Below, one piece after another: positions 2,490-25,275 of a stretch of DNA of 36,678 bases. Source of the stretch: Kiritimatiellia bacterium (GTDB lineage Bacteria; Verrucomicrobiota; Kiritimatiellia; RFP12; UBA1067); assembly GCA_017613085.1 (NCBI GenBank), contig JAGAEL010000139.1, forward strand, positions 1 through 36,678, written 5' to 3'. How positions within the stretch are numbered: the first letter of the stretch is position 1; each line of letters starts with the position of its first letter. Below the pieces are notes generated by a model, which ran no database searches, was not told the DNA's origin, and saw only the letters and a program-made list of their open reading frames with translations. The position numbers and the translations under genes are program-made.

Positions 2490-5400
2490 ATGTGTACGTT
2501 TCTTTCCAAGGTTAACGAAAACAGGATGATTGCGTTTTGTGTCGCGGCGGTTTTGTTCGGCGCGGCGGATGTCGCCGCACGGAACGTTTCGCTTGACTTG
2601 CGTCCAGCAAAGACGGCGCGGCGAGTCTTCGCCGCCGCCCCTTCCGTCCAAGACGATGCCGTGCGCTCCTTCCGGCTTGACGCGGGCGCGGCGGAGGTCG
2701 GGGAGGTGGCTCTCGGCGATGAATTGACGTTCACGCTTTTCGACGACGTAGTCCTTACGTTGACGCTGAAGGAGAGGATGCAGTCGCCCTTCGAGGGGGA
2801 TGCCTTCCTCGCGGAGGTGTCGGGGTACGAGGGCATGAAGACGGCGGTTGTCTTGCGTACCGCCGAGGGGCTCACCATCGATGTGCAGGATTTCCGCAGG
2901 GACAAGGTGTACAAGGTCGTTTCGATGCCGACGGGCGTGAAAGTCTCGGAAATCGAATCCTCCCACGAAGGGAAATGCGGATGCGACGCGCTTGAACCGC
3001 CCGTTCCCGGAAGGGGGATGTCTTCTTCGCTTCCGCAGGTTTCGCCTCCGCAGTTTACCGCCGCCGAGCAGAGCGACACGTGTATCGACATTCTGGTTGC
3101 CTATGATAAGAATGCGGCGGTATACGCGGGTAAGGAAGGCGGGTTGACGAACTTTGCCCGGATCGCGGTGCAGAAGATGAACGCCGCCCTCGCGAACACC
3201 GGACTGGACGAGAGCTTCCGCTTCCGCCTGGTGGGCGTCTGTGCGCTTGAGGTGTCGTCCGTCGATGTGCATGAAGTGCTTAACGCCGTCACGGCGGGTC
3301 AAGACGGATGGGCGGAGGTGAATACCGTCCGCGAGGCGGTCGGAGCGGATATCGTGACAACGCTCATCGACACGGGGTCTGCCTCCGGGACGACGGGGTA
3401 CGGATGGACGCTCTCTTACCCGGAGGTTTGGATGTTCGGGGATTCGGCGTACAACGTTTGCGCGATCCGGAGTGTCGCGAAGTCGCACACGATGACGCAC
3501 GAGTGCGGACACAACCTCGGCGCGGGACATTCCGACAAGCAGAGCACCCAGCGGGGACCGCAGCTCTATCCATACTCCTCCGGCTATTTCTTCACTGCGG
3601 GCGGCAGGGCTTACTGCACGATCATGGCGTACGCGGGCGAAAATCCGAGCGGCGCGAGTACGGTGACGGTTCCCTACTTCTCCTCCCCGAACTACACGTA
3701 CGAGGGAGTCCCGGTCGGCGACGAGACCCATGACAACACGCGGACGCTCGCCCAGACGTTTTCGGATGCCGCCAACTGGCGGGTGCAAAGGGTCCCGATG
3801 TCCTACGACATTGTTTTCGAGCCGGCGGTCGGCACGATGATCGACGGCTCGCTCGATGTTACCCTTATCCCCGGCAAGGCGGGGACGCCGATACGCTACA
3901 CGCTGGACGGCAGCGACCCGACGGCGGATTCCCCGCTGTACACCGGCCCGATCACGCTCACCGGGAACACGGTGATCAAGGCGGCGACGTTCGTGGACGG
4001 CCAGTGTTCCTTCCCGTTCGAGGCGGCCTATTATTCAAAGACGGACTTCGGCTACGCGCTCGGTCTCCCCGAACTCGAATGGAGGGCGAACGGCGACTGG
4101 CGCGTGCAGGTCACGAACACGCTGGACGGCGTGGCGGTCGAGACGCCAAATGTCCCCGGCGCCGTCGCTGGACTTTCGGCGAACATGACGGGGCCGTTGT
4201 CGATCTCATTCAACTACCGTCAGCCGGGGGGGCATACGGTGGAAGTCCTGTGCGACGGCGAGGCCGTGTGGAAGTCAACTTCATGGTCTGAAGGATGGCG
4301 CGGTGCGCTCGTCGAGATTCCGGCCGGTGATCACAACGTCACCTTCCGCGTGACGACGACGTTTGCGTATGCGAACTGTTTCGGGCTGGACTCGGTGCGC
4401 CTCCATTTCGTCCGTGCCCCCGTCCTTTCGCCCGCGACCACGGCGGATGCGGCCACCGCCCGCACGTTCGAGGAGGAGACGCCGGTGGCGATCACCACCG
4501 ACGAGGAGGACGCGACGATTTACTATACGCTGGACGGCAGCGACCCGAACGGGGAAGGCGCCCTGCTGTATGACGGTCCCTTCTTTCTCAGCGGCTCCAC
4601 GCGGGTGCGGGCGGTCGTTTCGGTGCCGGGGAAAGGCGAGAGCGCCGTCGTCGACGGCGTGTACCTGGATCGCCGTCCACCCCGTGCGGGCGAATGGACG
4701 CTGTGGGGTGAAGGCGCATACGGGGAGGTCGCGAAATCCGGCCGCATGATCGCGGAACTTTTCTGGGCGTATCCGGGGGACGACAACAGCAAGTTGCTGG
4801 AATCGGTAATGACGAGCGAGACCTTCACGGCATGGGCCGCTGCGAACGGCGTCTATCTTCTGGCGGACTCCTGGGGCGGGAAGGAAGGCGCCTCGGGAGG
4901 GAGATTCTGGTCGCTGTACAAAAGTACCGGTTTGTATGCGGCGATCGGGAAGGAAAACTACGCGGAATACCCGACGTTTGTGTTTGCTTCGCCTTCGGGT
5001 GCCAGCCTCGGCGCGATGCTCGCCCGCACCGATTCCCCATACGCGATCAACGGAAGGTCTTACGGGGGGACGCCGGAGTCCCTTATCGACTGTTTCGCGT
5101 CCGTCCTCGGAGGCGTCCCCGCACGTGCGCCAACCGCCTCCGTGACGGACGCGGCGGGGCTGTCGTTTCCGTTCTCCGTGACCCTCTCCGACACGGGCGG
5201 AAGCGGCACGATCTACTACACGCTGGACGGCACGACACCGACGCGCGAAACCGGTGTCCGCTACACCGGGGCCATCACCATCCCCGCTTCGGGGACGACG
5301 CTCAAGGCGGTCGTGTGGCCCGACGGGGCGAACGCGGTTTCCGGCATCCCGCTCGTCCTCTCCTACCGCTCGTCCGGCGCGATCGTTACGGCGCCCGCGC

Positions 5401-7304
5401 CTGTATCCGGACTGACCGCCTCGCAGGGCGAATACGAATACGGGACGGTTCTCCGCTGGACGGCATCCGCCGGCTCGGTTTCCAACCTCGTCTACCGTAG
5501 CGAGACGACCGACCCCGCCGGGGCGACGTTGATCGGCACCACGAAAAAATGCCTGTACTGGGATCTGGAGGGCGATATCGGAAAGACCTACTGGTATTGG
5601 GTGACCGCCGTCAACGAATACGGTGAAAGCGAGTTTTCTGCGACGGTGTCCGGATGGCGGCCGGCGGTGTTCGCGATCGTGTACGATGCGAACGGCGGAA
5701 CCGGCAGTATGCCCTCCCAGTCGTGCCGGGCCGGCGGAACCCTGATCCTCTCGGAAAGCGCCTTCCAATTCGCGGGACGCATCTTTGGCGGGTGGACGAC
5801 ACGTGCCGGCGGCGCGGTGGAGTACAGACCGGGCGATTCCGTCACGGTTTCGTCCGCCATGACGTTCTACGCCGTCTGGGAGCTTCCTCCTTTCGAGTTC
5901 GGCGGGGATGCCGAATGGACGTTCCTTGGCGGCGGCGTGTGGCAGAGCGGTTCAATCGGCGACAACCGCCAGACATGGATCCAGAAAACCGTCTCCGGTA
6001 CGGGGAGGGTTTCTTTCGACTGGAGTTCGTCATCGGAGGTAAACCGCGACGAGCTACAGTTCTTCATCGACGGCAAGAGACGGGCGTGGATCAGCGGCGA
6101 GTCGGGCTGGACGACAAAATCATTCGACCTTACCGGTTCCGGTACCCACGTGTTGAAGTGGGTGTATGCGAAAGACGGGACGGGGCGTTCCGGTTCGGAT
6201 TGCGGATGGATCCGTAATTTCGTGTGGACAGGGGCGAGTGGCGGTGCGACCCCTTCCGCCGGTGTGGGCGGTTCGACGTTCAACGGGTATGCGCTGGACG
6301 GAGACGGCGTGGTATCGGGGACGTTTGTCCTGGCGGTGAAGAAACCGAAGAAGGGGGCTTCTACCGCTGCCGCGACGTTGACGTTTGTTTCGCTTGCCAC
6401 CGGCAAAAAGACGAAGATCAACGGCAACGTGACGCTGGCCACGGGGGAGGGAAGCGGTGCGCTCGCGGGATTGAAGGTCGGGACGAAGACGGTCGCCGGA
6501 TCGGTCGCAAAGGTCGGGACGCTGACGGGCGGCGTGGATGCCGTGAAGGCGAAGGATTCCGCCGCGCTGGCGGTCTTGGCGAAGTTCAACGGGAAGAGTT
6601 ACATCGTCGCGCTCGCGCCTGATCAGCCGGAGGGGTATACGCAGGGCGGTTATTCGACGCTGGCGATTACGCTGGCGGCGAAGGGCAAGGTGAAGGTTGC
6701 CGGTGTGCTGGCGGATGGTACGAAGGTGACGGCGACCGCGCAGATGACGGTAGGCGACACCGATTGTTCCGTTCCGGTCATCTACGCCAAGAAGAGCAAG
6801 TTCGGGTTCGTCGCCCGATTCGACAAGAACACACGCGGGTTGGTTGAGGTTACCGCGCTGACGACATGGAAGAACACGGCGAAACCCGCGTTCACGATGG
6901 CGTGGGGGGTAATCGGAAACGGTGCGAAGGGAACTCTCGCCGGCGGGGTGAGGACGGTCTCGCTGGATGACGCGAAACTGTCGGGTTTTGTCCCGAACGC
7001 GATCGAGCAGACGCCGAAAGAAATCCCGGTGACGGTGAAAGGCACCAAGTGGGATGCGGGCAAGGCGGCGAAAGTCGCCTACAAGGGTGGCGCATTGACC
7101 ATCGCGGGTACAAACGTCTCCGCCCTGAAGCTGACCTACACGGCGAAGACGGGGTTGTTCAAGGGGAATTTCACGGTCTACGCGGTGAAGGGCGGCAAAC
7201 TCGTGAAAAACAAGTTCAACGTCTTCGGCGCGGTCACCGACGGTATCGGCTACGGCACCGCCGTCCTGAAAGGGAAGGGCAGCGTCGCCGTCACCGTCGA
7301 GTGA
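2490..7304 (+). CDS. Large secreted metzincin-like protease with chitobiase-type, FnIII-like and InlB-type repeats
   Basis: This is a 1604-residue exported protein. A signal peptide covers about residues 1-30 (charged start, hydrophobic stretch, cleavage after AADVAA). Residues ~190-430 form a reprolysin-like zinc protease. The site HECGHNLGAGH spans residues 337-347 (ligands H337, H341, H347; catalytic E338), and a Met-turn CTIMAY follows near 380. Three CHB_HEX_C-type modules with YTLDGSDP or YTLDGTTP lie near 467, 676 and 907. An FnIII-like segment spans ~970-1055 and an InlB/Listeria-Bacteroides repeat (VYDANGG...GGWTT) starts near 1060. The last ~330 residues are a glycine/lysine-rich module ending like the gene at 2-271. 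The ATG at 2490 has AAGGGG nine bases upstream; the ATG at 2526 would remove the charged n-region. It probably degrades or binds host or food protein at the cell surface. The substrate is unknown. Confidence 0.85.
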   Translation: MCTFLSKVNENRMIAFCVAAVLFGAADVAARNVSLDLRPAKTARRVFAAAPSVQDDAVRSFRLDAGAAEVGEVALGDELTFTLFDDVVLTLTLKERMQSPFEGDAFLAEVSGYEGMKTAVVLRTAEGLTIDVQDFRRDKVYKVVSMPTGVKVSEIESSHEGKCGCDALEPPVPGRGMSSSLPQVSPPQFTAAEQSDTCIDILVAYDKNAAVYAGKEGGLTNFARIAVQKMNAALANTGLDESFRFRLVGVCALEVSSVDVHEVLNAVTAGQDGWAEVNTVREAVGADIVTTLIDTGSASGTTGYGWTLSYPEVWMFGDSAYNVCAIRSVAKSHTMTHECGHNLGAGHSDKQSTQRGPQLYPYSSGYFFTAGGRAYCTIMAYAGENPSGASTVTVPYFSSPNYTYEGVPVGDETHDNTRTLAQTFSDAANWRVQRVPMSYDIVFEPAVGTMIDGSLDVTLIPGKAGTPIRYTLDGSDPTADSPLYTGPITLTGNTVIKAATFVDGQCSFPFEAAYYSKTDFGYALGLPELEWRANGDWRVQVTNTLDGVAVETPNVPGAVAGLSANMTGPLSISFNYRQPGGHTVEVLCDGEAVWKSTSWSEGWRGALVEIPAGDHNVTFRVTTTFAYANCFGLDSVRLHFVRAPVLSPATTADAATARTFEEETPVAITTDEEDATIYYTLDGSDPNGEGALLYDGPFFLSGSTRVRAVVSVPGKGESAVVDGVYLDRRPPRAGEWTLWGEGAYGEVAKSGRMIAELFWAYPGDDNSKLLESVMTSETFTAWAAANGVYLLADSWGGKEGASGGRFWSLYKSTGLYAAIGKENYAEYPTFVFASPSGASLGAMLARTDSPYAINGRSYGGTPESLIDCFASVLGGVPARAPTASVTDAAGLSFPFSVTLSDTGGSGTIYYTLDGTTPTRETGVRYTGAITIPASGTTLKAVVWPDGANAVSGIPLVLSYRSSGAIVTAPAPVSGLTASQGEYEYGTVLRWTASAGSVSNLVYRSETTDPAGATLIGTTKKCLYWDLEGDIGKTYWYWVTAVNEYGESEFSATVSGWRPAVFAIVYDANGGTGSMPSQSCRAGGTLILSESAFQFAGRIFGGWTTRAGGAVEYRPGDSVTVSSAMTFYAVWELPPFEFGGDAEWTFLGGGVWQSGSIGDNRQTWIQKTVSGTGRVSFDWSSSSEVNRDELQFFIDGKRRAWISGESGWTTKSFDLTGSGTHVLKWVYAKDGTGRSGSDCGWIRNFVWTGASGGATPSAGVGGSTFNGYALDGDGVVSGTFVLAVKKPKKGASTAAATLTFVSLATGKKTKINGNVTLATGEGSGALAGLKVGTKTVAGSVAKVGTLTGGVDAVKAKDSAALAVLAKFNGKSYIVALAPDQPEGYTQGGYSTLAITLAAKGKVKVAGVLADGTKVTATAQMTVGDTDCSVPVIYAKKSKFGFVARFDKNTRGLVEVTALTTWKNTAKPAFTMAWGVIGNGAKGTLAGGVRTVSLDDAKLSGFVPNAIEQTPKEIPVTVKGTKWDAGKAAKVAYKGGALTIAGTNVSALKLTYTAKTGLFKGNFTVYAVKGGKLVKNKFNVFGAVTDGIGYGTAVLKGKGSVAVTVE

Positions 7305-11974: not shown

Positions 11975-13282
11975 ATGAAGAAACGATTTTTTTTCGTGGC
12001 GATGCTTACGGCGGTTGCCGTTTTCGCACGGAAGCCGAATTATGATGAAGCGAAGGTGAAGCCCTACACGCTCGAAGATCCGCTGACGTTCGTTGACGGA
12101 CGGAAGGTCGGGACACCCGAAGACTGGGCGCGGCGCCGTCTGGAAATTCTGGAGATTTTTCAGCGGGAGATGTACGGTCGTATGCCGCCCCCGCCGGAAA
12201 ACCTGTCGCTTGAAGTTCTGGAAGAGGGAAAGACGATGGACGGTTTCGCCGTCCGCAAACAGGTACGGATGCGGTTCAAGGCCGATAAGACCGGCCCGAA
12301 AATCGATTGGCTGATTCTGCGTCCCGCGTACGCGAAGCGGCCGGTGCCGGCGATCCTTTTCTTGAACTACCGGGGAAACCAGGAATTCAGCGTCGATCCC
12401 GAAGTGCTTGTCTCGGACGGGTGGTTCCGCAACAACCCGAAAAAGTTTGTCTTCAACCACCGCGTCAGCGAGAAGAGCCGAGGCGTGGCCTGTACCAATC
12501 CGAACGGTCCCACGACGTTTCCGTTGGGAATGATCCTCGCGCGCGGCTATGCGGTCGTCACGGCGTGTTACGGCGAGATTTCGCCCGACCCGCAGGGGAA
12601 GGCGCAGCAGGACGAGTTGGCCTACACGGGGGTATTCTCGCTCTGGCCGCCGCGCAATCCCGCGCGCACGGACAACACGACCTCGCTGAACGCCTGGGCG
12701 TGGGGGCTGATGCGCGGCCTGGATATGTTGGAGCGCGAACCGGCGATCGATGCGAAACGGGTTGCCGTCACCGGCTGTTCCCGCCTTGGGAAAGCGGCGT
12801 TGATCGCGGGCGCGTTCGACGAGCGCTTCCCCGTCGTCATCCCGAACCAGACGGGCGGCGGCGGCGCCCCGCTTGCCAAACGCGACTTCGGCGAGAACGT
12901 CTCCACGGAGATGCGGGCGTTCACGCACTGGTACTGCAAGGCATACGGGAAGTATGTGGACAACGAGGAGGCGATGCCGTTCGACCAGCATCTGCTGCTG
13001 GCCGCCGTCGCGCCGCGCCGGCTTCTCGTGGAGGGGTTCAACTCCGGCTGGTTCGATCCCAAGGGTGAATACCTCTCCTGCCGCGCCGCCTCCTGCGTCT
13101 GGAAGATGTTGGGCAAGTCGCCCATGCCGGACGTCCCGTATCCCGACGACCTTTCGACGGACGCGATCGGCGGCGACCTCGGTTATTACCACCGTCCGGG
13201 CAACCACGGAATCAACGATTGGGATTGGTTGCGGATGCTGGATTTCGCGGACCGCTCGTTCGCGGAATCGATACGGCGGTGA
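11975..13282 (+). CDS. Secreted CE15-type glucuronoyl esterase
   Basis: This is a 435-residue exported alpha/beta hydrolase of carbohydrate esterase family 15, which cleaves esters between lignin alcohols and 4-O-methyl-glucuronic acid of xylan. A signal peptide covers about residues 1-18 (MKKRFFFVAMLTAVAVFA). The nucleophile lies in GCSRLGK, with S269. The family segments GGGGAPLAKR, HWYC, FDQH and a terminal HGINDWDW with the catalytic histidine are all present. In most bacterial members an acidic residue sits in a pattern like E-D-x-W-A-D-P; here the equivalent reads NSGWFDP, so the acid may be supplied from elsewhere. AGGAGG precedes the ATG, nine bases after the VWA gene. A second CE15 gene lies 1.4 kb downstream. 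Confidence 0.85.
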   Translation: MKKRFFFVAMLTAVAVFARKPNYDEAKVKPYTLEDPLTFVDGRKVGTPEDWARRRLEILEIFQREMYGRMPPPPENLSLEVLEEGKTMDGFAVRKQVRMRFKADKTGPKIDWLILRPAYAKRPVPAILFLNYRGNQEFSVDPEVLVSDGWFRNNPKKFVFNHRVSEKSRGVACTNPNGPTTFPLGMILARGYAVVTACYGEISPDPQGKAQQDELAYTGVFSLWPPRNPARTDNTTSLNAWAWGLMRGLDMLEREPAIDAKRVAVTGCSRLGKAALIAGAFDERFPVVIPNQTGGGGAPLAKRDFGENVSTEMRAFTHWYCKAYGKYVDNEEAMPFDQHLLLAAVAPRRLLVEGFNSGWFDPKGEYLSCRAASCVWKMLGKSPMPDVPYPDDLSTDAIGGDLGYYHRPGNHGINDWDWLRMLDFADRSFAESIRR

Positions 13283-14584: not shown

Positions 14585-14623
14585 ACGGATGCGCCCAGCG
14601 CCGTATTTGTGGATTTGAAAGGG

Positions 14624-14653
14624 TTGACGTGGCCATGTTTGGTTTGCTATCCT
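14624..14653 (+). promoter_or_regulatory. Promoter of the second CE15 gene; mRNA may be leaderless
   Basis: TTGACG at 14624-14629 and TATCCT at 14648-14653 are 18 bases apart. The ATG at 14660 begins only six bases after the -10, where transcription itself should start. No convincing ribosome site precedes that ATG. Confidence 0.6.
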
Positions 14654-14659
14654 TTGGGT

Positions 14660-15739
14660 ATGAAAAGACGTGAATTCATGGAACTTTTGGTTGCCGGGGG
14701 CCTGTTCGGCGCGTATGCGTTGCCGCCGGTGTCGGGGAAGGATGAACTGCGCAAGTGGTTTCTGGACAACGTGTACGGCCATGCGCCGCTCGGCCGTCCG
14801 GCGGACATGGCGTTTACGGGTAACAGGATCCTTTTCGGCGGGGGAAGGTTGAAGGTCGATCTCACCGTCTCCCTCCCGCCCGGGGCCTCCAAGGAGAAGC
14901 CTTGCCCCGTCCTTGTCATGGGGGATTTCCGCACCTGGAACAACGGGATGCGCGGGGACGAGAAATCGTTGAAGCAGAAACGCCAGCAGGAGGATCTGGA
15001 CGCCCATGCGGCATCGCGCGGTTACGCGCTGATCCACTATGATCTCAACGAGGCCGCTCCCGACCAGCCGCGACGGCAGGAGCTGGAACGTCTTAAGAAA
15101 CAGGGGAAGCCCTTGCCGCCGTGTCCCTACGGTCTTTTCGACATCTACGGGGGCGGGGACGATCGGACGGAAACGAGCTGGGGCACGATCCGGGCGTGGG
15201 CTTGGTGCCACAGCCGCGTGCTGGACTGGATTGAGACGCAGCCGATGCTCGACGCCAAGCGCGTCGCCGTGTTGGGCCATTCGCGTCTCGGCAAAACCGC
15301 GCTCTGCGCGGGCGTGACGGACGGACGCTTCAAGGTGGTCTACTCCAACGCATCTGGTTGCGGCGGCGCGAAGTTGAATCGGATGCCCTTGCCCCGGAGC
15401 GAGCATATCGGGCAGATCGTCGATCGTTTCCCGTATTGGTTCTGCAAGCGCTTCAATGTCTGGAAGAACCGCGACGCCGAGATCGCGCACGATCAGGACG
15501 AATGGATGGGGCTTATCGCCTCGCCGACACGGTACCTCTACGTCGCGAGCGGTTCAGAAGACCATTGGGCGGGACCGCAAGGGGAGAAGGCGGCGGCGGA
15601 AGGCGCCGCGAAAGCGTGGGAAGCCCTGGGGCTTACAGGAATGGGGGGACACGTCGGCTATCACTGCCACAAGGGGCCGCACGACCTCGGTGTGCGCGAT
15701 TTGAAGCTCTTCCTCGATTTCTGCGACACGCGGTTGTGA
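14660..15739 (+). CDS. Tat-exported CE15-type glucuronoyl esterase
   Basis: This is a 359-residue CE15 family hydrolase. The N-terminus MKRREFMELLVAGGLFGAYA is a twin-arginine signal, so it is exported folded. The nucleophile motif is GHSRLGK with S208. Further family segments are YSNASGCGGAKLNR, FPYWFCKRF, HDQDEW and SEDHWAGPQGE with the expected acidic residue; the histidine lies in the terminal GPHDLG region. It differs from the CE15 protein at 11975 in signal type and sequence, so they are not recent duplicates. I chose 14660 because the twin-arginine signal begins there; the ORF can be extended upstream to 14609 only through the promoter. It likely removes glucuronoyl esters from lignin-carbohydrate complexes. 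The next gene follows after 36 bases. Confidence 0.85.
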   Translation: MKRREFMELLVAGGLFGAYALPPVSGKDELRKWFLDNVYGHAPLGRPADMAFTGNRILFGGGRLKVDLTVSLPPGASKEKPCPVLVMGDFRTWNNGMRGDEKSLKQKRQQEDLDAHAASRGYALIHYDLNEAAPDQPRRQELERLKKQGKPLPPCPYGLFDIYGGGDDRTETSWGTIRAWAWCHSRVLDWIETQPMLDAKRVAVLGHSRLGKTALCAGVTDGRFKVVYSNASGCGGAKLNRMPLPRSEHIGQIVDRFPYWFCKRFNVWKNRDAEIAHDQDEWMGLIASPTRYLYVASGSEDHWAGPQGEKAAAEGAAKAWEALGLTGMGGHVGYHCHKGPHDLGVRDLKLFLDFCDTRL

Positions 15740-17300: not shown

Positions 17301-17328
17301 GCGGGAATTTCGTCTCGCATTTCTTTAT
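17301..17328 (+). terminator. Weak intrinsic terminator candidate
   Basis: GCGGGA at 17301-17306 pairs with TCTCGC at 17313-17318 (one G-U pair) and ATTTCTTTAT follows. It begins one base after the metallophosphoesterase stop codon and lies between convergent genes. The stem is short. Confidence 0.35.
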
Positions 17329-18275
17329 ATCGCGCCTTCGTAGAGTTTGAGGGTACCTTCGGCGAGGAGGTGCCGGTCTGCGTAGACACGGACGAGAACG
17401 AGATAAAAAACGTCAAAACGGATTTGTTTCCGGACGCGGAGAAGAAGCCGCTGCCCGATTTTGGGGATTTCGTATACGCGGAAGGCGTTGACCCCGACGA
17501 GCGCCCCCGGAAGTTCTTCCGGTTTTTCGTGCCGCGTTACCCGAAAGAGGTACAAGGCGCCCGACGCTTGCGCCATCATTTCCAGCAAGGCACATTCGTC
17601 TACTTTGCCGTCACGTGTACAGACGTCGCTTTCCGGCTGAACAACCGCTTCCACCAGTCCGCCTTTCTCTCCGATCTCCAGAATCCGGTCGATTCGTACG
17701 GCACGGCCTTTGTGCGGGATGTACGGCGCGGCGGAAACCGGTAGGGCTTTTCTCGGTATACCTTTGTTCCGGGGACAAAAGGGATCGGCGGCAAGGTAGT
17801 CGCCCGTTTGCTCGTAGGCGTTTCCTCTGCAACCGCAACAGGAGGGGAAGTCGGGACAGGAGGCACACGCATCTTTGATCCGCTCCTCCGGATGACGGAG
17901 GTCGTCGAGGACTTCGCTTTCTGCGACAATTTCATCCAGCGGCGTTTCCAACACGTTTCCGAGTACGACTTTCGTGCGGGGGCAGGGGAATACGGAACCG
18001 TCGGCTGCGATGTAGCAACACCCTTCGCGGATCAAGGTGCAGTCGTGGCGTTCGCGTGAGCACGCAGGGAACGCATCGGGCGAGGGATAGCACGCGGATT
18101 CGATACCGGCTGCACGGCATTGTTCGCGACAGGTTTCGGAAACCGTCCCAAAGAGGACGATCCTGCGGACGCCCATCGAACGTGCTTGCGCAAGGGTGTT
18201 GGTGAACCAGGCCGGTGCTTTTGCTTCTCCATCGGCACACGGCGAAAGCAGCAGGGTTTGCAGTCCGGCTTTCAA
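17325..18275 (-). CDS. SPASM iron-sulphur domain fused to hotdog 3-hydroxyacyl-ACP dehydratase
   Basis: This is a 316-residue two-part protein. Residues ~20-70 look like the last strand-helix units of a radical SAM barrel. Residues ~79-167 are a SPASM domain: C79, C86 or C87, then DGSVFPC (C98), GNVLETPLDEI, CASC (C137, C140), C146-C149 and C167 in DPFC, as in proteins holding two auxiliary 4Fe-4S clusters. The CxxxCxxC radical SAM core is absent. Residues ~178-316 are a FabZ/ApeP-type hotdog fold with the catalytic pair H188 in PHKG and E232 in LLEMMAQ. The dehydratase would remove water from 3-hydroxyacyl-ACP. The ATG overlaps the ligase stop codon (ATGA), so there is no room for a longer N-terminus. 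It is the last gene of the cluster. The role of the iron-sulphur part is unknown. Confidence 0.8.
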   Translation of the reverse strand: MKAGLQTLLLSPCADGEAKAPAWFTNTLAQARSMGVRRIVLFGTVSETCREQCRAAGIESACYPSPDAFPACSRERHDCTLIREGCCYIAADGSVFPCPRTKVVLGNVLETPLDEIVAESEVLDDLRHPEERIKDACASCPDFPSCCGCRGNAYEQTGDYLAADPFCPRNKGIPRKALPVSAAPYIPHKGRAVRIDRILEIGEKGGLVEAVVQPESDVCTRDGKVDECALLEMMAQASGALYLFRVTRHEKPEELPGALVGVNAFRVYEIPKIGQRLLLRVRKQIRFDVFYLVLVRVYADRHLLAEGTLKLYEGAI

Positions 18276-19573
18276 CGCAGGCTCTCCCGTTCATCGAAGA
18301 ACCGTCTCGGCTTGTGGCTGGCAGGATTGAAGATACGCCGCAGAACCTCCGCTTCCGGAAGGAGTTCGACGGCGGGATGCAGCCGCAACGTGGCGAAGAG
18401 GAGGTCGGAGAGGCGTTCCGAGGTGAGCGAGGAATCTTTTACAGCGGCGGTGACCGTTACGCGGTCGCTCAAATCTTCCCCGCCCCGTACGGTGACGAAA
18501 GAGGCGGCGACACCGTGAATGGCGTCCAGCGCGTTGAGGAAGGCGGCGGGATAGACGGTCGTGCCGCGCACTTTCATCATCTGGTTCCGGCGTCCCAGGA
18601 TCGGTCCGAGCCGCACACTCTTGCGCCCGCAAGGGCAGGGGGTGTCGATCAGGAAACTCATGTCGCCCGTCCGGAAGCGGACGAGCGGTACCGCTTCGAC
18701 TTGAAGGGGGGTGACAACGACTTCGCCGACTTCGCCGGGCGGCAGACGTTTCCCGGTTTCGTCGAGGATTTCCACGACGGCGAGTTCGGGATGGAGATGC
18801 CCGCCCTGCTGCGCGGTACATTCGCAGAAGGAGGTGACGATTTCGGAAGAGGCGTAGGTGGAATAGGCTTTCGCGTTCCAGACCGATTCCAGCGCCGCCG
18901 TGACGGGGAGTTGACGCATGGCGCGGTCGCGCAGCGGATCGCCCGCGCAGACCAGCGTGTGGACGGATTCCGTCAAGTCGTCCTGCCCGCTTTCGCGCAA
19001 GTGGCGGCCGAGGCGCAGCAGGAATCCGGGGACGCCGACGAGGACGGTCGGATGTAGGCGACGCATCACGGCGGCGTGGCTCTCCACCGTGTTGATGCCG
19101 TTTCGGATAGCGGCTGCGCCGAGCGTCGTCAGACCGAGGTAGTAGGCGTAGCCGGCAACGAAACAGCGGTCGAGCGTACACGTCATCAACGCGGTATCGT
19201 CCGGCGCGATGCCGCACGCGCGCAGCGAGATGCGTTCGTTGAACGCCAGCCGGTCCATGTCGGCGCGCGAGTAGGCGACGGGAGTGGGGATGCCCGTCGT
19301 GCCGGACGAAAACACGATGTCGGAGATTTCGCGTTGCGGGGCGGCGAGGAAATCCTGCGTCCGCTCGGCGAACGTCCGCTTGTCGGTTGTCGGGAGTTCG
19401 ACGAGCGTGTCGCACGTGACCGTGGAAAGCCGTTCGGCGAAGGGAGCCAACATTTCCCGGTAGTACGGTGAATGTGCAAACGCATGACGGAGATGGCCGC
19501 GTAACAACTCGTCCTGCCGCGTCCGGGCGGCATCCGGTTCTAGCCATTCCAAGAGGTTGTTTTCATCCCGCAT
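18272..19573 (-). CDS. PaaK-type adenylate-forming acyl/aryl ligase
   Basis: This is a 433-residue AMP-forming enzyme of the phenylacetate-CoA ligase family. The ATP-binding loop is SSGTTGIPTP (residues 89-98). Other family marks are YSTYASSE, the VRFRTGD hinge region and the GRRNQMMKVRGTTVYP segment that opens the C-terminal subdomain. It would activate a carboxylic acid, probably an aromatic or fatty starter, as acyl-AMP and pass it to CoA or to one of the two ACPs in the operon. A CPCG pair before the hinge is common in PaaK relatives and may bind metal. Its start overlaps the acyltransferase end by eleven bases, and its stop overlaps the next gene. The substrate cannot be read from the sequence. 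Confidence 0.85.
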   Translation of the reverse strand: MRDENNLLEWLEPDAARTRQDELLRGHLRHAFAHSPYYREMLAPFAERLSTVTCDTLVELPTTDKRTFAERTQDFLAAPQREISDIVFSSGTTGIPTPVAYSRADMDRLAFNERISLRACGIAPDDTALMTCTLDRCFVAGYAYYLGLTTLGAAAIRNGINTVESHAAVMRRLHPTVLVGVPGFLLRLGRHLRESGQDDLTESVHTLVCAGDPLRDRAMRQLPVTAALESVWNAKAYSTYASSEIVTSFCECTAQQGGHLHPELAVVEILDETGKRLPPGEVGEVVVTPLQVEAVPLVRFRTGDMSFLIDTPCPCGRKSVRLGPILGRRNQMMKVRGTTVYPAAFLNALDAIHGVAASFVTVRGGEDLSDRVTVTAAVKDSSLTSERLSDLLFATLRLHPAVELLPEAEVLRRIFNPASHKPRRFFDERESLR

Positions 19574-20315
19574 CGAGTGTTCCTTCGAGTTTTGCCAGTT
19601 GCTCGCGCATTACGCCGCGTACCCGTTCCTTAAAATGAAACGGCGTCTCGCCCTCTTCCTGCGCGATGTCCGGGAGGACGGAAAAACGGATGTGCGCGGG
19701 TTTGAGAAGAGGCGAGCCTTTTGCCGGCGTCTCTTCGTTCCCCGTGATCAAAACGGGCGTCACGGGGAATCCCGCTTTCGCGGCGAGGCGGAAAACGCCG
19801 CTGTGGAAAGCGCCCATCGGACCTTTGCCGGAACGGGTCCCTTCGGGAAAACAGCAAAGGATACTACCCGCCCGCAGTTGCGCGATCACGCTTTCGCACC
19901 AGTCGTCGAACGGGAGCTCGTCCACGTTGATCCACTTAAAAAAACGGACACCCATTCCCATGATCGGGATGCGCGAAACCGTGCGGTTGAAGAGGACGAT
20001 GGGTGAACGCGTGGGAAGGAGCGAACAAAGGAAGGTGTCGGAAAAGGATTTGTGGTTCAACACGTAGATGCGTGGAACGGGATTCTTCCCTAGGCGTTCC
20101 AATCCGGAAGTTGAAACCGGCGCGATGGGACGGAGGAAAAACAGATATGAGCGGCCAAAGATATCCGCTGCAAGGAACCGTTGCCAGCGCAGGTAGACTG
20201 CGCTGGGAAGAAACGGACACGCCAACAGAAAGGAGAGCGTCATCACAAGAAAAATACACAGGCCGCAGCAACCCCAGAGAAGATAGAAAAGAACATTCAG
20301 GAGCACGACTTTCAT
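19563..20315 (-). CDS. PlsC-type membrane acyltransferase
   Basis: This is a 250-residue member of the lysophospholipid acyltransferase superfamily. One or two membrane segments lie within residues 4-37. The catalytic HX4D is NHKSFSD (H88, D93) and the acceptor-binding block is FPEGTRSGKG (156-165). It would move an acyl group from ACP or CoA to a glycerophosphate, an aryl head or another lipid. Aryl-polyene and dialkylresorcinol clusters contain a similar enzyme that attaches the product to its membrane anchor. The ATG at 20315 is preferred because it places the hydrophobic segment first. A GTG at 20327 overlapping the ACP stop codon (GTGA) is the alternative. The longer reading to 20423 lies inside the ACP gene. 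Confidence 0.85.
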   Translation of the reverse strand: MKVVLLNVLFYLLWGCCGLCIFLVMTLSFLLACPFLPSAVYLRWQRFLAADIFGRSYLFFLRPIAPVSTSGLERLGKNPVPRIYVLNHKSFSDTFLCSLLPTRSPIVLFNRTVSRIPIMGMGVRFFKWINVDELPFDDWCESVIAQLRAGSILCCFPEGTRSGKGPMGAFHSGVFRLAAKAGFPVTPVLITGNEETPAKGSPLLKPAHIRFSVLPDIAQEEGETPFHFKERVRGVMREQLAKLEGTLDAG

Positions 20316-20323
20316 GGTCGCGG

Positions 20324-20578
20324 TCACTTCTGTGACGAAACGATCTCGGTCACGAGTCGGTAGACGTCGCCCATCGTGCGGATTTCGCGGACACGCGGAT
20401 CCTGTCGGAGATCCACGCCGCACTCTTCTTTCAGCGAGGCGACCAAGTCGACGGCGTCAAGGCTGTCCAGTCCAAGGTCGTCGAATAATTTCGCCTCCGG
20501 TTTCAAGCGGGCCGGTTCCAGTTCAAAGGTGTCGCAAAACACCTGGTTCACTTTCTGTACGATGTCATCTGCGGGCAT
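20324..20578 (-). CDS. Acyl carrier protein (second of the cluster)
   Basis: This is an 84-residue carrier protein. The phosphopantetheine site is S39 in LGLDSLDAVD, and the flanking helices have the usual acidic character. It would carry the growing chain between the ketosynthase, dehydratase, ligase and acyltransferase encoded around it. The ATG follows the ketosynthase stop codon by one base, and GAGGAG lies within the end of the ketosynthase gene. It differs clearly from the ACP at 22234-22512, so the two carriers probably have different jobs, for example starter loading and elongation. Confidence 0.92.
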   Translation of the reverse strand: MPADDIVQKVNQVFCDTFELEPARLKPEAKLFDDLGLDSLDAVDLVASLKEECGVDLRQDPRVREIRTMGDVYRLVTEIVSSQK

Positions 20579-20579
20579 A

Positions 20580-22247
20580 TCAACTCCTCAAAACAAGGGA
20601 AGATTCTAACACATTTTCGAGGTCAGGTACAAAGAAAAATAGCGGGGCGCACTGTTCGTCCAGGGAGATCACGATGACCGCCTCCGCCCGGTCGGAGGCA
20701 AGCCAGCACCGGGCTAGGCGGAACGCCTCTTCCGTTACGCCGTGAAACGCGGTCAGCGTACAGCTCGGTCCCTTTACGCCCGTCTCCATCGCGGCATAGG
20801 CGGCTGCCGCGTTGTGGACGGTGTGCGAGAAAAGGAGCGGAGAGGGCGGAAGTCCGGGCGCGTCCAGCAATTCATCGACGAACGTGAACGTGGAGGCGTG
20901 CGGTCCGTGTTTCGTCGCGACGATTAGTCCGATCCGTTCGGGCAGCGTTCCGGGCGGCAACGCGCCAAAGGCGCTTTTCGCCGCAAGGACGGCGTTCCGC
21001 GAGAACCGGTCCGCCCGCCTGGCTTTGCGTCCCGGAGGGAATGTATCCTGGATCGCGACGCGGAGGGTATGCGTTTCAACGGGGCTTCTTACCGCAGGCA
21101 GGGCATCCGTCGTACCCAGCAGAAGCGCGGTATTCTGTCCCCCGAAGGCGAGCGAGGTGGAGAGAACGGGGCCTTTCGTTGCGTTCGCACGGAGAACGCC
21201 GAAGACGGCTTCGATCGCGCCGGCCGCGCCAAGCGTGTGACCGGTGAACGCCTTGGTCGGGCAGAGCGGCACGCCGGGGAGAAGCGAATCAAAGACGGCG
21301 GTTTCGACCGCGTCGTTGTCCAGTGTCGCCGTGCCGTGCGGATTGATTTCCGCCACGGCCGAAAGCGGGATGGCGGCGTCCTTCGCAGCCGCTTCGATGG
21401 CGCGACGCAGGCCTGCGCCTGAGGGATCCGGCGCGGTGAGGTGGTGGGCGTCCGCGCTCATGCCATATCCGAGTAATGCCCCGCGCGAGGTCGCGCCCCG
21501 CGCACGGCGCGAGCGTTCGGTTTCCAGCACCAGGATGCCCGCGCCTTCGCCGAGGTTCAACCCGTCGCGGTCGGGCGCGAACGGTTTGCAGGGATTCTCG
21601 CTGTACACGCCCAGCGCGGAAAAACCGGCGTAGGGCAGGGGATTCAACGCATCGACGCCGCCGCAGATGACCGCATCGCAGACATCGTTACGCAACCATT
21701 CGGCGGCAATGCCGATCGCGTCTGCGCCGGAGGAACAAGCGTCGGTGACACAGACGGCCGGACCGGAGGTTTGAAGTCTAGTGCGCACCCATTCCGCCGG
21801 GTTGCTGTTGAGGTAGTGTTGCGCGAAGGAGGTGTCGCCCGCCCCCGTTTCGCGGTACCGCCGATAGGCGGGGACGGCTTCAAACCGGTTCGTCAACATA
21901 TTGAACTGGCAACCGGTGGTCGTCCCGAGACAGACGCCTACGCGAAGCCGGGCAAGAACGGAAATGGAAAGCCCTGCGTCGCGGAGCGCTTCTTCAAGCG
22001 CGGGAAGCAGGAGTTCGAACAGACGCGCGTCCGGCCTCTCCTCCCGAAGTGCGGCGACGGAAAACACGGGCTTGGTCGCGGTCTCCCCGAAAAAGCCGCG
22101 AACGGGTTGCGTCACGTCCCGCAAACCGCCCCTCGTGAATGTGGCGAGCCGGGCGTCTGCCGCCGCGACATCGGTTCCGGCGGCGGAAACCTGTCCCATC
22201 CCGGTGATCGGAAGGACGGACTCTGCGGCTGGATTAGCCTGCGGCAT
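20580..22247 (-). CDS. Fused double ketosynthase: FabF-type KS plus ketosynthase-like domain
   Basis: This 555-residue protein is longer than a FabF (about 410). Residues 10-380 are a complete beta-ketoacyl-ACP synthase with C171 (TDACSSG), H304 (INPHGTAT), K332 and H337 (FTGHTLGAAG), and a terminal LAFGGQN. After a basic linker, residues ~391-540 resemble the N-terminal ketosynthase-like family called Ketoacyl-synt_2, known as a separate protein in aryl-polyene clusters (ApeC-like). Its mark is LFSHTVHNAAAAYAAMETG, and it has no active-site cysteine in the usual place. The second part may act as a chain-length factor joined in cis. The start overlaps the upstream ACP by 14 bases. The enzyme would extend ACP-bound acyl chains by decarboxylative condensation with malonyl-ACP. 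Confidence 0.85.
   Translation of the reverse strand: MPQANPAAESVLPITGMGQVSAAGTDVAAADARLATFTRGGLRDVTQPVRGFFGETATKPVFSVAALREERPDARLFELLLPALEEALRDAGLSISVLARLRVGVCLGTTTGCQFNMLTNRFEAVPAYRRYRETGAGDTSFAQHYLNSNPAEWVRTRLQTSGPAVCVTDACSSGADAIGIAAEWLRNDVCDAVICGGVDALNPLPYAGFSALGVYSENPCKPFAPDRDGLNLGEGAGILVLETERSRRARGATSRGALLGYGMSADAHHLTAPDPSGAGLRRAIEAAAKDAAIPLSAVAEINPHGTATLDNDAVETAVFDSLLPGVPLCPTKAFTGHTLGAAGAIEAVFGVLRANATKGPVLSTSLAFGGQNTALLLGTTDALPAVRSPVETHTLRVAIQDTFPPGRKARRADRFSRNAVLAAKSAFGALPPGTLPERIGLIVATKHGPHASTFTFVDELLDAPGLPPSPLLFSHTVHNAAAAYAAMETGVKGPSCTLTAFHGVTEEAFRLARCWLASDRAEAVIVISLDEQCAPLFFFVPDLENVLESSLVLRS
20603..20632 (-). promoter_or_regulatory. Possible internal promoter before the second ACP
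   Basis: On the minus strand, TTGTAC and TAGAAT are 18 bases apart. They lie inside the 3' end of the ketosynthase gene, about 25 bases upstream of the ACP start. It could arise by chance within coding DNA. Confidence 0.25.
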
Positions 22248-22512
22248 CCGCTTTTCCCTGTGCTTCGACGAAATCGGCCAATGCGTTGATGGAGGCGAAA
22301 ATTCCGCTTCCCTTTTTGATTTGTTTCACGTCGCAACCGAACTGCCGCTGGAGGATCACGATGATCTCCACCGCGTCGAGGGAATCCAGTTCAAGCCCCC
22401 CGTCCCCGAAAAGGGGCGCGTCATCGTCGATGGCCTCCGGTGTCGCGCCTTCGATGGAGAGCCGTTCGATCAACAGCGTCTTCAATTTCGTTTTGAGTTC
22501 GTCCCTTGTCAT
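22234..22512 (-). CDS. Acyl carrier protein (first of the cluster)
   Basis: This is a 92-residue carrier protein. The phosphopantetheine serine is S44 in LELDSLDAVEI, preceded by the FGDGGL loop usual for ACPs of aryl-polyene and fatty-acid type clusters. The rest is acidic with an alanine-rich tail. It begins one base after the KDPG aldolase stop codon and its end overlaps the ketosynthase start, so translation is coupled. It likely serves that ketosynthase. A housekeeping role in fatty acid synthesis is less likely because FabD, FabG and FabH genes are absent. Confidence 0.9.
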   Translation of the reverse strand: MTRDELKTKLKTLLIERLSIEGATPEAIDDDAPLFGDGGLELDSLDAVEIIVILQRQFGCDVKQIKKGSGIFASINALADFVEAQGKADAAG

Positions 22513-22515
22513 CGG

Positions 22516-23163
22516 CTACGCCCCCCGGATGGTTTTGACGAGGGCTGCGGCCGCCTTGCAACGCTGCAGAACGGCATCCCATTTACCCTCCGCCATGTCG
22601 GCGGTCTTGGCGATCCAGGTGCCGCCGGCGGCGGCGACGATCGGCAACCGGAGGTAGTCGGCCAGGTTGTCCGCCGTCACCCCCCCCGTGGGCATGAATT
22701 GGATACCCGTGTGCTTGTAGGGGCCGGAGAACGCGCCCAGCAACTTTGCACCGCCGATGGATCCGGCGGGGAAAAACTTCAGAATGCGGCATCCGAGTTC
22801 AAGTCCCTGCTCGATTTCGGACGGGGTGGCGATACCGGGAATGAAGGGGAAGCCCGCTTCGGAGGCGGCCTTCACGACACGCGGGTTCAAGCCCGGTGCG
22901 ACACCGAAGCGCGCACCGCAGCCGATGGCGGTCTGTACGGTTTCGGGAGAAAGCACCGTGCCGGCCCCGACGATCAACTGCGGACGTTCCTTCGACAACA
23001 GGCGGATGACATCTGCGGCGGCTTTCGTCCGGAAGGTGACTTCGACGACGGGAAGTCCGCCTTCCAGCAAGGCGTCCGCGAGTGGCAATGCGTGTTCAAC
23101 CGAATCGACCGCGACAACGGGGACGACCCCGACGGCGGCGATGGATTCCAAAACAGATGACAT
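22516..23163 (-). CDS. eda: 2-dehydro-3-deoxy-phosphogluconate (KDPG) aldolase
   Basis: This is a 215-residue class I aldolase that cleaves KDPG to pyruvate and glyceraldehyde-3-phosphate in the Entner-Doudoroff or uronate pathways. The Schiff-base lysine is K129 in ILKFFPA and the general acid/base glutamate is E41 in VEVTFRT. The phosphate site includes MPTGGV and the late AAGGTW. AAGGAGA lies eight bases before the ATG. KDPG is also the end point of glucuronate breakdown, which would fit the two glucuronoyl esterases nearby. Its place in the middle of a lipid-type operon next to a ribulose-phosphate epimerase is unexpected. The related KDPGal aldolase activity cannot be excluded. Confidence 0.88.
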   Translation of the reverse strand: MSSVLESIAAVGVVPVVAVDSVEHALPLADALLEGGLPVVEVTFRTKAAADVIRLLSKERPQLIVGAGTVLSPETVQTAIGCGARFGVAPGLNPRVVKAASEAGFPFIPGIATPSEIEQGLELGCRILKFFPAGSIGGAKLLGAFSGPYKHTGIQFMPTGGVTADNLADYLRLPIVAAAGGTWIAKTADMAEGKWDAVLQRCKAAAALVKTIRGA

Positions 23164-23877: not shown

Positions 23878-25275
23878 CTATTCCTTCGCCAGCGGCTTCC
23901 CGAAAAGTTCGCCCGTCAAGGTGTGGAGGAAGGCGGCGACCGCGCGCACGTCGTCTTCCGTGTAGGGAATCCCGAGCTGATAGGTCAGCATCGAGGCGAC
24001 GGCGTCGACGAGGGAGTTCTTGCTTCCGTCGTGCAGATAGGGGGCTGTCAACGCCACGTTGCGCAGCGTCGGGACTTTGAAACGGTGCGCGTCTTCGGGA
24101 TACCCGCTGAACGCCTGCAAGCCCGCGTCGCCTTCCGTCAGGATCCGTCCCTTGAACGGATTGTCCTTCAAATCGGCGTACTCGAACGACTGGCCGCCGA
24201 GGGTCGGGCCGGCGTGGCAGCGGGTGCAGGAGTACTGGCGGAAGAGTTTGTAACCGATGTCTTCGTCGTGGGAGAAGACGGTCTTGTGGCCTTTCAAGTA
24301 ACGGTCGAAACGGGCGCCCGGCGTGATCAGGCGTTTCCCGTATTCCGCGATGGCGTTGCTGATGGTCCGTTCCGTGAATCCTTCCGGGTAGACGGCGGTG
24401 AAGGAGGCTTTAAGCGGGGCGTCTTCGGCAAGCCGCGAGATGACCTGCGTCCAGTTCGTACACCCCATCATCACCGGATTCACGACCGGGATCTTCGCCT
24501 GTTCGGCGAGGTCGGCGGCGCGGCCGTCCCAAGACTGGCGGAGGTTGAAAACGGCGTTCAACACGGTCGGCGTGTTCAGGTGGCTGGAACGATGGGCGAT
24601 GCCCTTCGACATCGCGATGCCGTCCGCGCCTCCCTTCTCCAGCTGGTGGCAGGAGGCGCACGAAAGGGATTCATCGGCGGAAAGGCGTTTGTCGTGGAAG
24701 AGCTTTTCGCCGAGCGCGGCTTTTTCCGCGTGGAACGGAAGGTGCTCCGGAATCGGCTGGACAATCTTTTCCGTGTTGTTCGTGATGCCCCATTGTTCGA
24801 GCCATTCATGGCGGACGACGTTGCACCAGGACTGGAGGATCGCCTTCTCGCTGTGCGAGAGCCAGGTGCCCCAGTGGATGATCAGGTAAGGGTGCGGCGG
24901 CATCGAATTGTCCAGCAGCACATTCTCCAGTTTCGCCAGCACGGCGAGCGGGGTGGGGGCGTCCAGTTTCTGCCCCTCGGTGGCCTTCGGTCCGAGGTAG
25001 TTCCGGTTCCCCGGCTCCCAGTGGCGCAACGCCTTGCGCCGCTCCTCGCCGATGAGCGATACGAGGCCGGGGATCTTCCCGTAGAACGGGCATCCACGGG
25101 TGCTATCGTGGCAGGCGGCGCATTTCTCGGCGAGAATCGTGCGCACGGTTGACCGCATCGCGACCGGCTGTGTCGGCATTTTACGGGGAATTTGCCGCAA
25201 AACGAGAACCCCCGTCGCGTAACACAGCCCCGCCAGCACCGCCCAGAACAGAAATTTCAGCAAATACTTTTTCAT
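23878..25275 (-). CDS. Membrane-anchored tri-haem cytochrome c peroxidase
   Basis: This is a 465-residue protein that would reduce hydrogen peroxide in the periplasm. An N-terminal helix (residues ~5-27) acts as signal or anchor. The first haem site, CAACH (52-56), belongs to an extra N-terminal haem-binding domain. CASCH (206-210) and CTRCH (350-354) mark the two-domain MauG/CcpA-type peroxidase. The architecture resembles the tri-haem quinol peroxidase YhjA of Escherichia coli, in which the extra haem passes electrons from the membrane quinol pool. The start is set by the lysine-rich signal; a promoter ends only 12 bases upstream of it, and no clear ribosome site is present. It is the first gene of the transcription unit that includes the lipid cluster. 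Confidence 0.88.
   Translation of the reverse strand: MKKYLLKFLFWAVLAGLCYATGVLVLRQIPRKMPTQPVAMRSTVRTILAEKCAACHDSTRGCPFYGKIPGLVSLIGEERRKALRHWEPGNRNYLGPKATEGQKLDAPTPLAVLAKLENVLLDNSMPPHPYLIIHWGTWLSHSEKAILQSWCNVVRHEWLEQWGITNNTEKIVQPIPEHLPFHAEKAALGEKLFHDKRLSADESLSCASCHQLEKGGADGIAMSKGIAHRSSHLNTPTVLNAVFNLRQSWDGRAADLAEQAKIPVVNPVMMGCTNWTQVISRLAEDAPLKASFTAVYPEGFTERTISNAIAEYGKRLITPGARFDRYLKGHKTVFSHDEDIGYKLFRQYSCTRCHAGPTLGGQSFEYADLKDNPFKGRILTEGDAGLQAFSGYPEDAHRFKVPTLRNVALTAPYLHDGSKNSLVDAVASMLTYQLGIPYTEDDVRAVAAFLHTLTGELFGKPLAKE

Follow-up and report, generated by a model that had tools for sequence, protein, structure and literature searches.

Does the six-gene locus at 17325-22512 of a Kiritimatiellia contig encode an acyl-lipid pathway of its own, or does it belong to a known type of synthase whose remaining genes lie elsewhere? 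The window, by which we mean the whole stretch of DNA analysed, is an entire contig of 36,678 nucleotides from a genome (G000) of 2.43 Mb that is 67% complete and whose closest relative among named genomes is a yak-rumen MAG of the Kiritimatiellae. All six ORFs lie on the minus strand and are real, intact and conserved (Table 1). A first-pass annotation had described six tightly packed genes with named domains, and this description was borne out by the ORFs, the domain profiles and the overlaps or short gaps: ACP1 and the ketosynthase (KS) gene overlap by 14 bp, the KS gene and ACP2 are 1 bp apart, the acyltransferase and ligase genes overlap by 11 bp, and the ligase and dehydratase genes by 4 bp. 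The acyltransferase start had probably been called too early; the ATG at 20315, 8 bp after the ACP2 stop, is the more likely one because it fits both the sequence and the shorter homologue in the congener G003.

Table 1. Window coordinates of the six locus genes and of the adjoining upstream gene, with the evidence for each assignment
Feature	Coordinates	Strand	Evidence
ACP1, ApeE-like acyl carrier protein, DSL motif	22234..22512	-	PF00550, NF006617; ApeE is the best E. coli APE match
KS-CLF fusion: ApeO-like KS (residues about 1-395) and half-size ApeC-like chain-length factor (about 396-555)	20580..22247	-	Domain profiles, KS tree, ApeC chain match, catalytic residues
ACP2, ApeF-like acyl carrier protein, DSL motif	20324..20578	-	NF003757, ApeF match
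PlsC-type acyltransferase, ApeD-like, NHKSFSD and FPEGTR motifs	19563..20315 (start corrected)	-	PF01553, ApeD match
FlxY/PaaK-type acid ligase	18272..19573	-	NF053551 score; ligase clade
SPASM-ApeP: radical-SAM barrel remnant (1-83), SPASM (84-172), ApeP-like hot-dog dehydratase (173-316)	17325..18275	-	PF13186, alignment, model, dN/dS
KDPG/KHG aldolase, 3 bp upstream of ACP1	22516..23163	-	PF01081

The KDPG/KHG aldolase gene also lies upstream of the locus in G003 and is probably cotranscribed with it while standing outside the pathway. A promoter scan returned no sigma-70-like site, a consensus that says little for this phylum. Elsewhere in the window we observed a MauG-like di-haem cytochrome c peroxidase gene (23878-25275) upstream of the RPE and KDPG aldolase genes, in the same place in G003; two glucuronoyl-esterase-like genes (GCE_fung) near each other (11975-13282 and 14609-15739), which fits plant-fibre breakdown; and a gene (2490-7304) for a 1604-residue protein with a reprolysin-type metallopeptidase domain and Fn3-associated repeats.

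The first-pass annotation had proposed a search for the same gene order in genomes of the phylum. G003 shows the identical six-gene order, with protein identities of 76-96% and dN/dS values of 0.03-0.24, ACP1 being 96% identical with a dN/dS of 0.03. Two further congeners, G001 and G002, keep the first five genes (ACP1-KS/CLF-ACP2-acyltransferase-ligase) and carry the SPASM-dehydratase gene on a separate contig with other neighbours, and in the wider phylum the genes stand as two blocks of a long cluster. Because the order is the same in G003 and the first five genes are ordered alike in two other congeners, it is not due to chance. The dN/dS values show that purifying selection acts on every gene of the locus.

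For gene-by-gene comparison, the proteins of the E. coli CFT073 cluster for aryl polyenes (APE), which are yellow pigments, served as the reference set. In a tree holding a single ApeO sequence, that of E. coli, the KS of the locus (KS3) forms a clade with it (96/98, ultrafast bootstrap/SH-aLRT), and two further KS types from the clusters of relatives branch elsewhere. The catalytic residues Cys171, His304 and His337 of KS3 are invariant. What had been annotated as a fused double ketosynthase is indeed a fusion, but one of a complete KS with a half-size KS-like domain (Pfam Ketoacyl-synt_2) without the active cysteine. This C-terminal domain matches the 204-residue ApeC chain 7f28_A of Acinetobacter baumannii (E 3e-4), and the chain-length factors (CLFs) of APE systems are half size (PMC8358021). 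A structure search with the KS-CLF protein gave generic, non-discriminating FabF matches, with no ApeO or ApeC among the matches listed.

Among the E. coli APE proteins, ACP1 matches ApeE best (38%, E 8e-14) and ACP2 matches ApeF (38%, E 2e-15); ACP2 also scores 71.6 bits against NF003757, above the 65-bit cut-off. The best match of the acyltransferase is a weak one to ApeD (26%, E 6e-5), and ApeP comes first, again weakly, for the dehydratase. With identities as low as 26-38%, the assignments of the ACPs and the acyltransferase are putative. The ligase scores 373 bits against NCBIfam FlxY (NF053551), under the cut-off of 520, and gives no significant match to ApeH (E 0.58); in the ligase tree it joins the ligases of the long cluster in a clade separate from the order's other PaaK enzymes.

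The long cluster surrounds ligase homologues of about 50% identity in Desulfobacterota, Myxococcota, Omnitrophota and Verrucomicrobiota. It holds a FabG/FlxB-like reductase, a CrtD-like flavoenzyme, KS1, an ACP, an acyltransferase, the ligase and a radical-SAM-SPASM-dehydratase fusion, together with LolA, MMPL, DUF3261, ApeI-like, 4HBT thioesterase, KS2 and B12 radical SAM proteins. In Verrucomicrobiota relatives it continues to a glycosyltransferase-like gene, an ACP, KS3 and a CLF; this KS3-CLF pair is related to the window fusion, and G336 is a further genome with the two fused. The window accordingly joins two blocks of the long cluster, namely ACP1-KS3-CLF and ACP2-acyltransferase-ligase-(radical-SAM-SPASM-ApeP). 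At a threshold of E 1e-30, the radical-SAM-SPASM-dehydratase fusion was found in 37 of the 388 phylum genomes sampled; fragments are counted in this figure, as is the window genome's free radical-SAM protein. We also observed three further arrangements: a ligase and a radical-SAM-SPASM-ApeP seemingly in one frame of 810 or more residues (L083 4111-6875), possibly a natural fusion or an assembly effect; an MMPL exporter and a DUF3261 protein in one frame of 1015 residues (L170 5636-8680); and a related but different arrangement in which an unfused radical-SAM-SPASM protein lies beside a 37% relative of the ligase and a B12 radical SAM protein (L181 4095-7790, G282:C36).

Such a cluster type was described by Rattray et al. 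in Kuenenia, Desulfotalea and Geobacter (Rattray 2009; PMC2649909), and antiSMASH 'ladderane' clusters of unknown product occur in Desulfobacterota, Verrucomicrobiota and Omnitrophota (PMC9902471); our match to these is one of gene content taken from the papers. With its KS next to ApeO and its whole gene set a subset of this large, published but uncharacterised cluster type, the locus does not uphold the earlier view that it was the window's best candidate for an undescribed system. That it constitutes a distinct, self-contained six-gene pathway, as first proposed, fits the compact, operon-like packing and the order kept in G003 but is unlikely: both blocks are part of a larger cluster in relatives, other parts of that cluster persist on other contigs in the genus, and the locus encodes no reductase.

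The window genome carries an ApeR-like KS1 at the edge of contig C52, which is 83.5% identical to the KS1 of G001 and forms a clade with the priming ketosynthase ApeR (100/99); KS1 was found in three congeners. In G001 and G002, an ApeQ-like reductase adjoins the ApeR-like KS at another locus. A homologue (59%) of the long-cluster reductase is present in these two genomes and was found neither in G000 nor in G003 (84% complete). Because the orthologous KS1 sits at a contig edge, the ApeQ-like reductase of the window genome may be unassembled, and given the dedicated reductase in two congeners it is doubtful that ketoreduction is borrowed from fatty acid synthesis, as had been suggested. A block on contig C45 encodes an ApeI-like protein (GHFPG motif), an ApeK-like protein and KS2, the last of which is present in all four congeners. 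All four also encode an intact radical-SAM-SPASM protein directly upstream of ligA and ybeY (on C137 in the window genome; gene names read from the sequence).

Other parts of the long cluster or of APE systems were searched for without success. Neither a CrtD/phytoene-desaturase-like gene nor the tested B12 radical SAM gene was found in the four congeners, the weak radical-SAM rows in G001 and G002 being generic. No member of the ApeL/M/N export set lies in the locus, and the genus has only an MMPL relative of 27-30% (the 30% one on C196). An aromatic ammonia-lyase (PF00221) was found in none of ten genomes, the incomplete window genome included, with positive controls; a starter derived from a Tyr/Phe ammonia-lyase was consequently dropped. 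Incomplete assembly limits what the absences in G000, G002 and G003 can show; G001 is 97% complete.

Overall, we consider it probable from these comparisons that the locus preserves the core of an APE-type type II synthase, the ancestral cluster having been dismantled in this Kiritimatiellae genus. The earlier suggestion of a reduced acyl- or aryl-lipid pathway akin to APE, flexirubin and ladderane-type clusters is thereby supported. The locus resembles the APE clusters of E. coli CFT073 and Xenorhabdus doucetiae (ApeA-R) in its two ACPs, its ApeO-ApeC-type KS-CLF with a half-size CLF, its ApeP-like dehydratase and its ApeD-like acyltransferase, and homologues of ApeR, ApeI and ApeK lie elsewhere in the window genome. 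It differs in that KS and CLF are fused, the ligase is of the FlxY/PaaK type, a SPASM domain is attached to ApeP and the genes are scattered rather than contiguous. Against an APE-type core stand the ligase, the failure to find an ApeQ-type ketoreductase, an exporter set or an aromatic ammonia-lyase in a window genome that is only 67% complete, and the lack of a product assigned to any cluster of this radical-SAM type. Because the KS-CLF, ACP, ApeR and putatively paired ApeP/ApeI features of APE systems are present while an ApeH ligase, the export set and contiguity are not, we file the locus as an APE variant and not as an APE cluster.

The same genes could instead be left over from a ladderane-type pathway, or from an anaerobic route to polyunsaturated lipids, in which the starter is aliphatic, such as has been proposed for the similar clusters of Desulfotalea and Kuenenia (PMC2649909); we regard this as possible, if the less probable reading. 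The long clusters share the make-up of the ladderane-like FASII clusters of Desulfotalea, Geobacter and Kuenenia (the antiSMASH ladderane class), with a PaaK-type ligase beside a radical-SAM protein, several KSs, ACPs and a FabZ-like dehydratase, and they hold the genes reported as syntenic between Kuenenia and Desulfotalea, namely a phenylacetyl-CoA-ligase-like gene, radical SAM enzymes, a phytoene-desaturase-like gene and a membrane protein (PMC2649909). The missing ammonia-lyase is in line with this origin, as is the SPASM-ApeP model, whose dehydratase part, the only part probed in the structure search, is equally near to ApeP (6qsr_B, Z 19.4) and to the FabZ of anammox Kuenenia (8ayd, Z 19.6); this tie, with ApeP not above the FabZ rows, does not discriminate. 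The genus differs from these clusters, however, in having neither the CrtD-like desaturase nor the tested B12 radical SAM enzyme and in a locus fusion without its radical-SAM core, and the ligase family suggests aromatic acids.

Flexirubin clusters, with their FlxY ligase and FlxB reductase, offer a further comparison, since the ligase is closest to NCBIfam FlxY and the long-cluster reductase is close to FlxB, but both proteins score under the family cut-offs and the ten genomes hold no aromatic ammonia-lyase. Domain searches of the locus found neither DarA nor DarB among its six genes.

As an APE-type core, the locus would most likely encode a ligase-primed type II synthase for a membrane-attached polyunsaturated acyl, possibly aryl-polyene, lipid. 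The FlxY-like ligase would activate a carboxylic acid and load it onto ACP1; because of the ligase family this acid is probably aromatic, although an aliphatic starter, as in the ladderane proposals, may serve as well. The ApeO-ApeC-like fusion would, by homology, extend the chain with malonyl units on ACP2, and a ketoreductase encoded at another locus, whose gene was found in congeners and not in the window genome, would reduce it. SPASM-ApeP, presumably paired with the ApeI-like protein of C45, would then dehydrate the intermediates to a conjugated chain, which the ApeD-like acyltransferase may attach to a membrane lipid.

The name SPASM-dehydratase proved right, and the protein contains no radical-SAM core. 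In an alignment with full radical-SAM-SPASM-ApeP fusions, it keeps pieces of the first barrel units, while most of the barrel is deleted and the CxxxCxxC motif is absent; the SPASM cysteines and the dehydratase are retained. It thus shares a SPASM domain with conserved cysteines with AhbD/NirJ2-like radical-SAM/SPASM enzymes but differs from them in having neither CxxxCxxC nor most of the TIM barrel. A frameshift artefact masking the core was ruled out by the ligase gene overlapping the start and by the same kind of deletion in G003, G001 and G002. The predicted model (pLDDT 89, pTM 0.88) shows a hot-dog fold for the dehydratase domain. Two pairs of genomes were compared, and the dN/dS values carry no error bars. 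Between G000 and G003 the SPASM part is constrained most strongly, with 88% identity and a dN/dS of 0.08; the dehydratase stands at 0.23 and the barrel remnant at 0.26. All three parts are constrained between G001 and G002 (0.09-0.13).

It is therefore highly unlikely that the locus is decaying, with its product no longer made and the short SPASM-dehydratase a degenerate relic. The barrel deletion, the dispersed cluster and the unlinked dehydratase of two congeners would fit decay, but they stand against low dN/dS in all genes and in the SPASM part, intact catalytic motifs, and the retention of KS2 in all four congeners and of KS1 in three. The SPASM part would be the leftover of a radical-SAM-SPASM-ApeP fusion, whose radical-SAM role either has been lost or is supplied in trans by the free radical-SAM/SPASM protein encoded beside ligA. 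This retained Fe-S-type domain probably still contributes in its own right, whether to structure, to docking or by carrying electrons. A single duplication giving rise to SPASM-ApeP and the free protein was suggested by a SPASM identity of 51-54%; in a SPASM tree built on 86 columns this origin is neither recovered nor rejected (AU p 0.42).

CxxxCxxC is present in nearly all other complete fusions (for L083 and L116 a different stretch was scored). In G162, a genome of another family with a complete cluster, the fusion (L180 3299-4588, G162:C64) likewise has neither the three cysteines nor part of the barrel, and that of G233, from the same genus as G162, is intact. Because the window genus and G162 lost it independently, the core disappeared on at least two occasions, each time leaving SPASM and the dehydratase in place. 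Our literature search found no paper that links aryl polyenes to radical SAM, and none that links SPASM to a dehydratase. We tentatively suggest, without holding it the likelier case, that the SPASM domain has been freed from radical-SAM chemistry and is now a selected working part of the dehydratase, the genus having split one enzyme into a free radical-SAM-SPASM protein and SPASM-ApeP, and G162 having lost the site independently.

For the 'ladderane'-labelled clusters of non-anammox bacteria, which have no known product, the conserved core is now aligned gene by gene with APE synthesis, and a radical-SAM-SPASM enzyme is shown to be fused to an ApeP dehydratase across several phyla. The two natural cases in which SPASM-ApeP outlasted the radical-SAM core provide a ready comparison for what the radical step adds. 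If the SPASM domain has indeed been freed in this way, its clusters would act on, or dock with, the acyl-ACP dehydration step.
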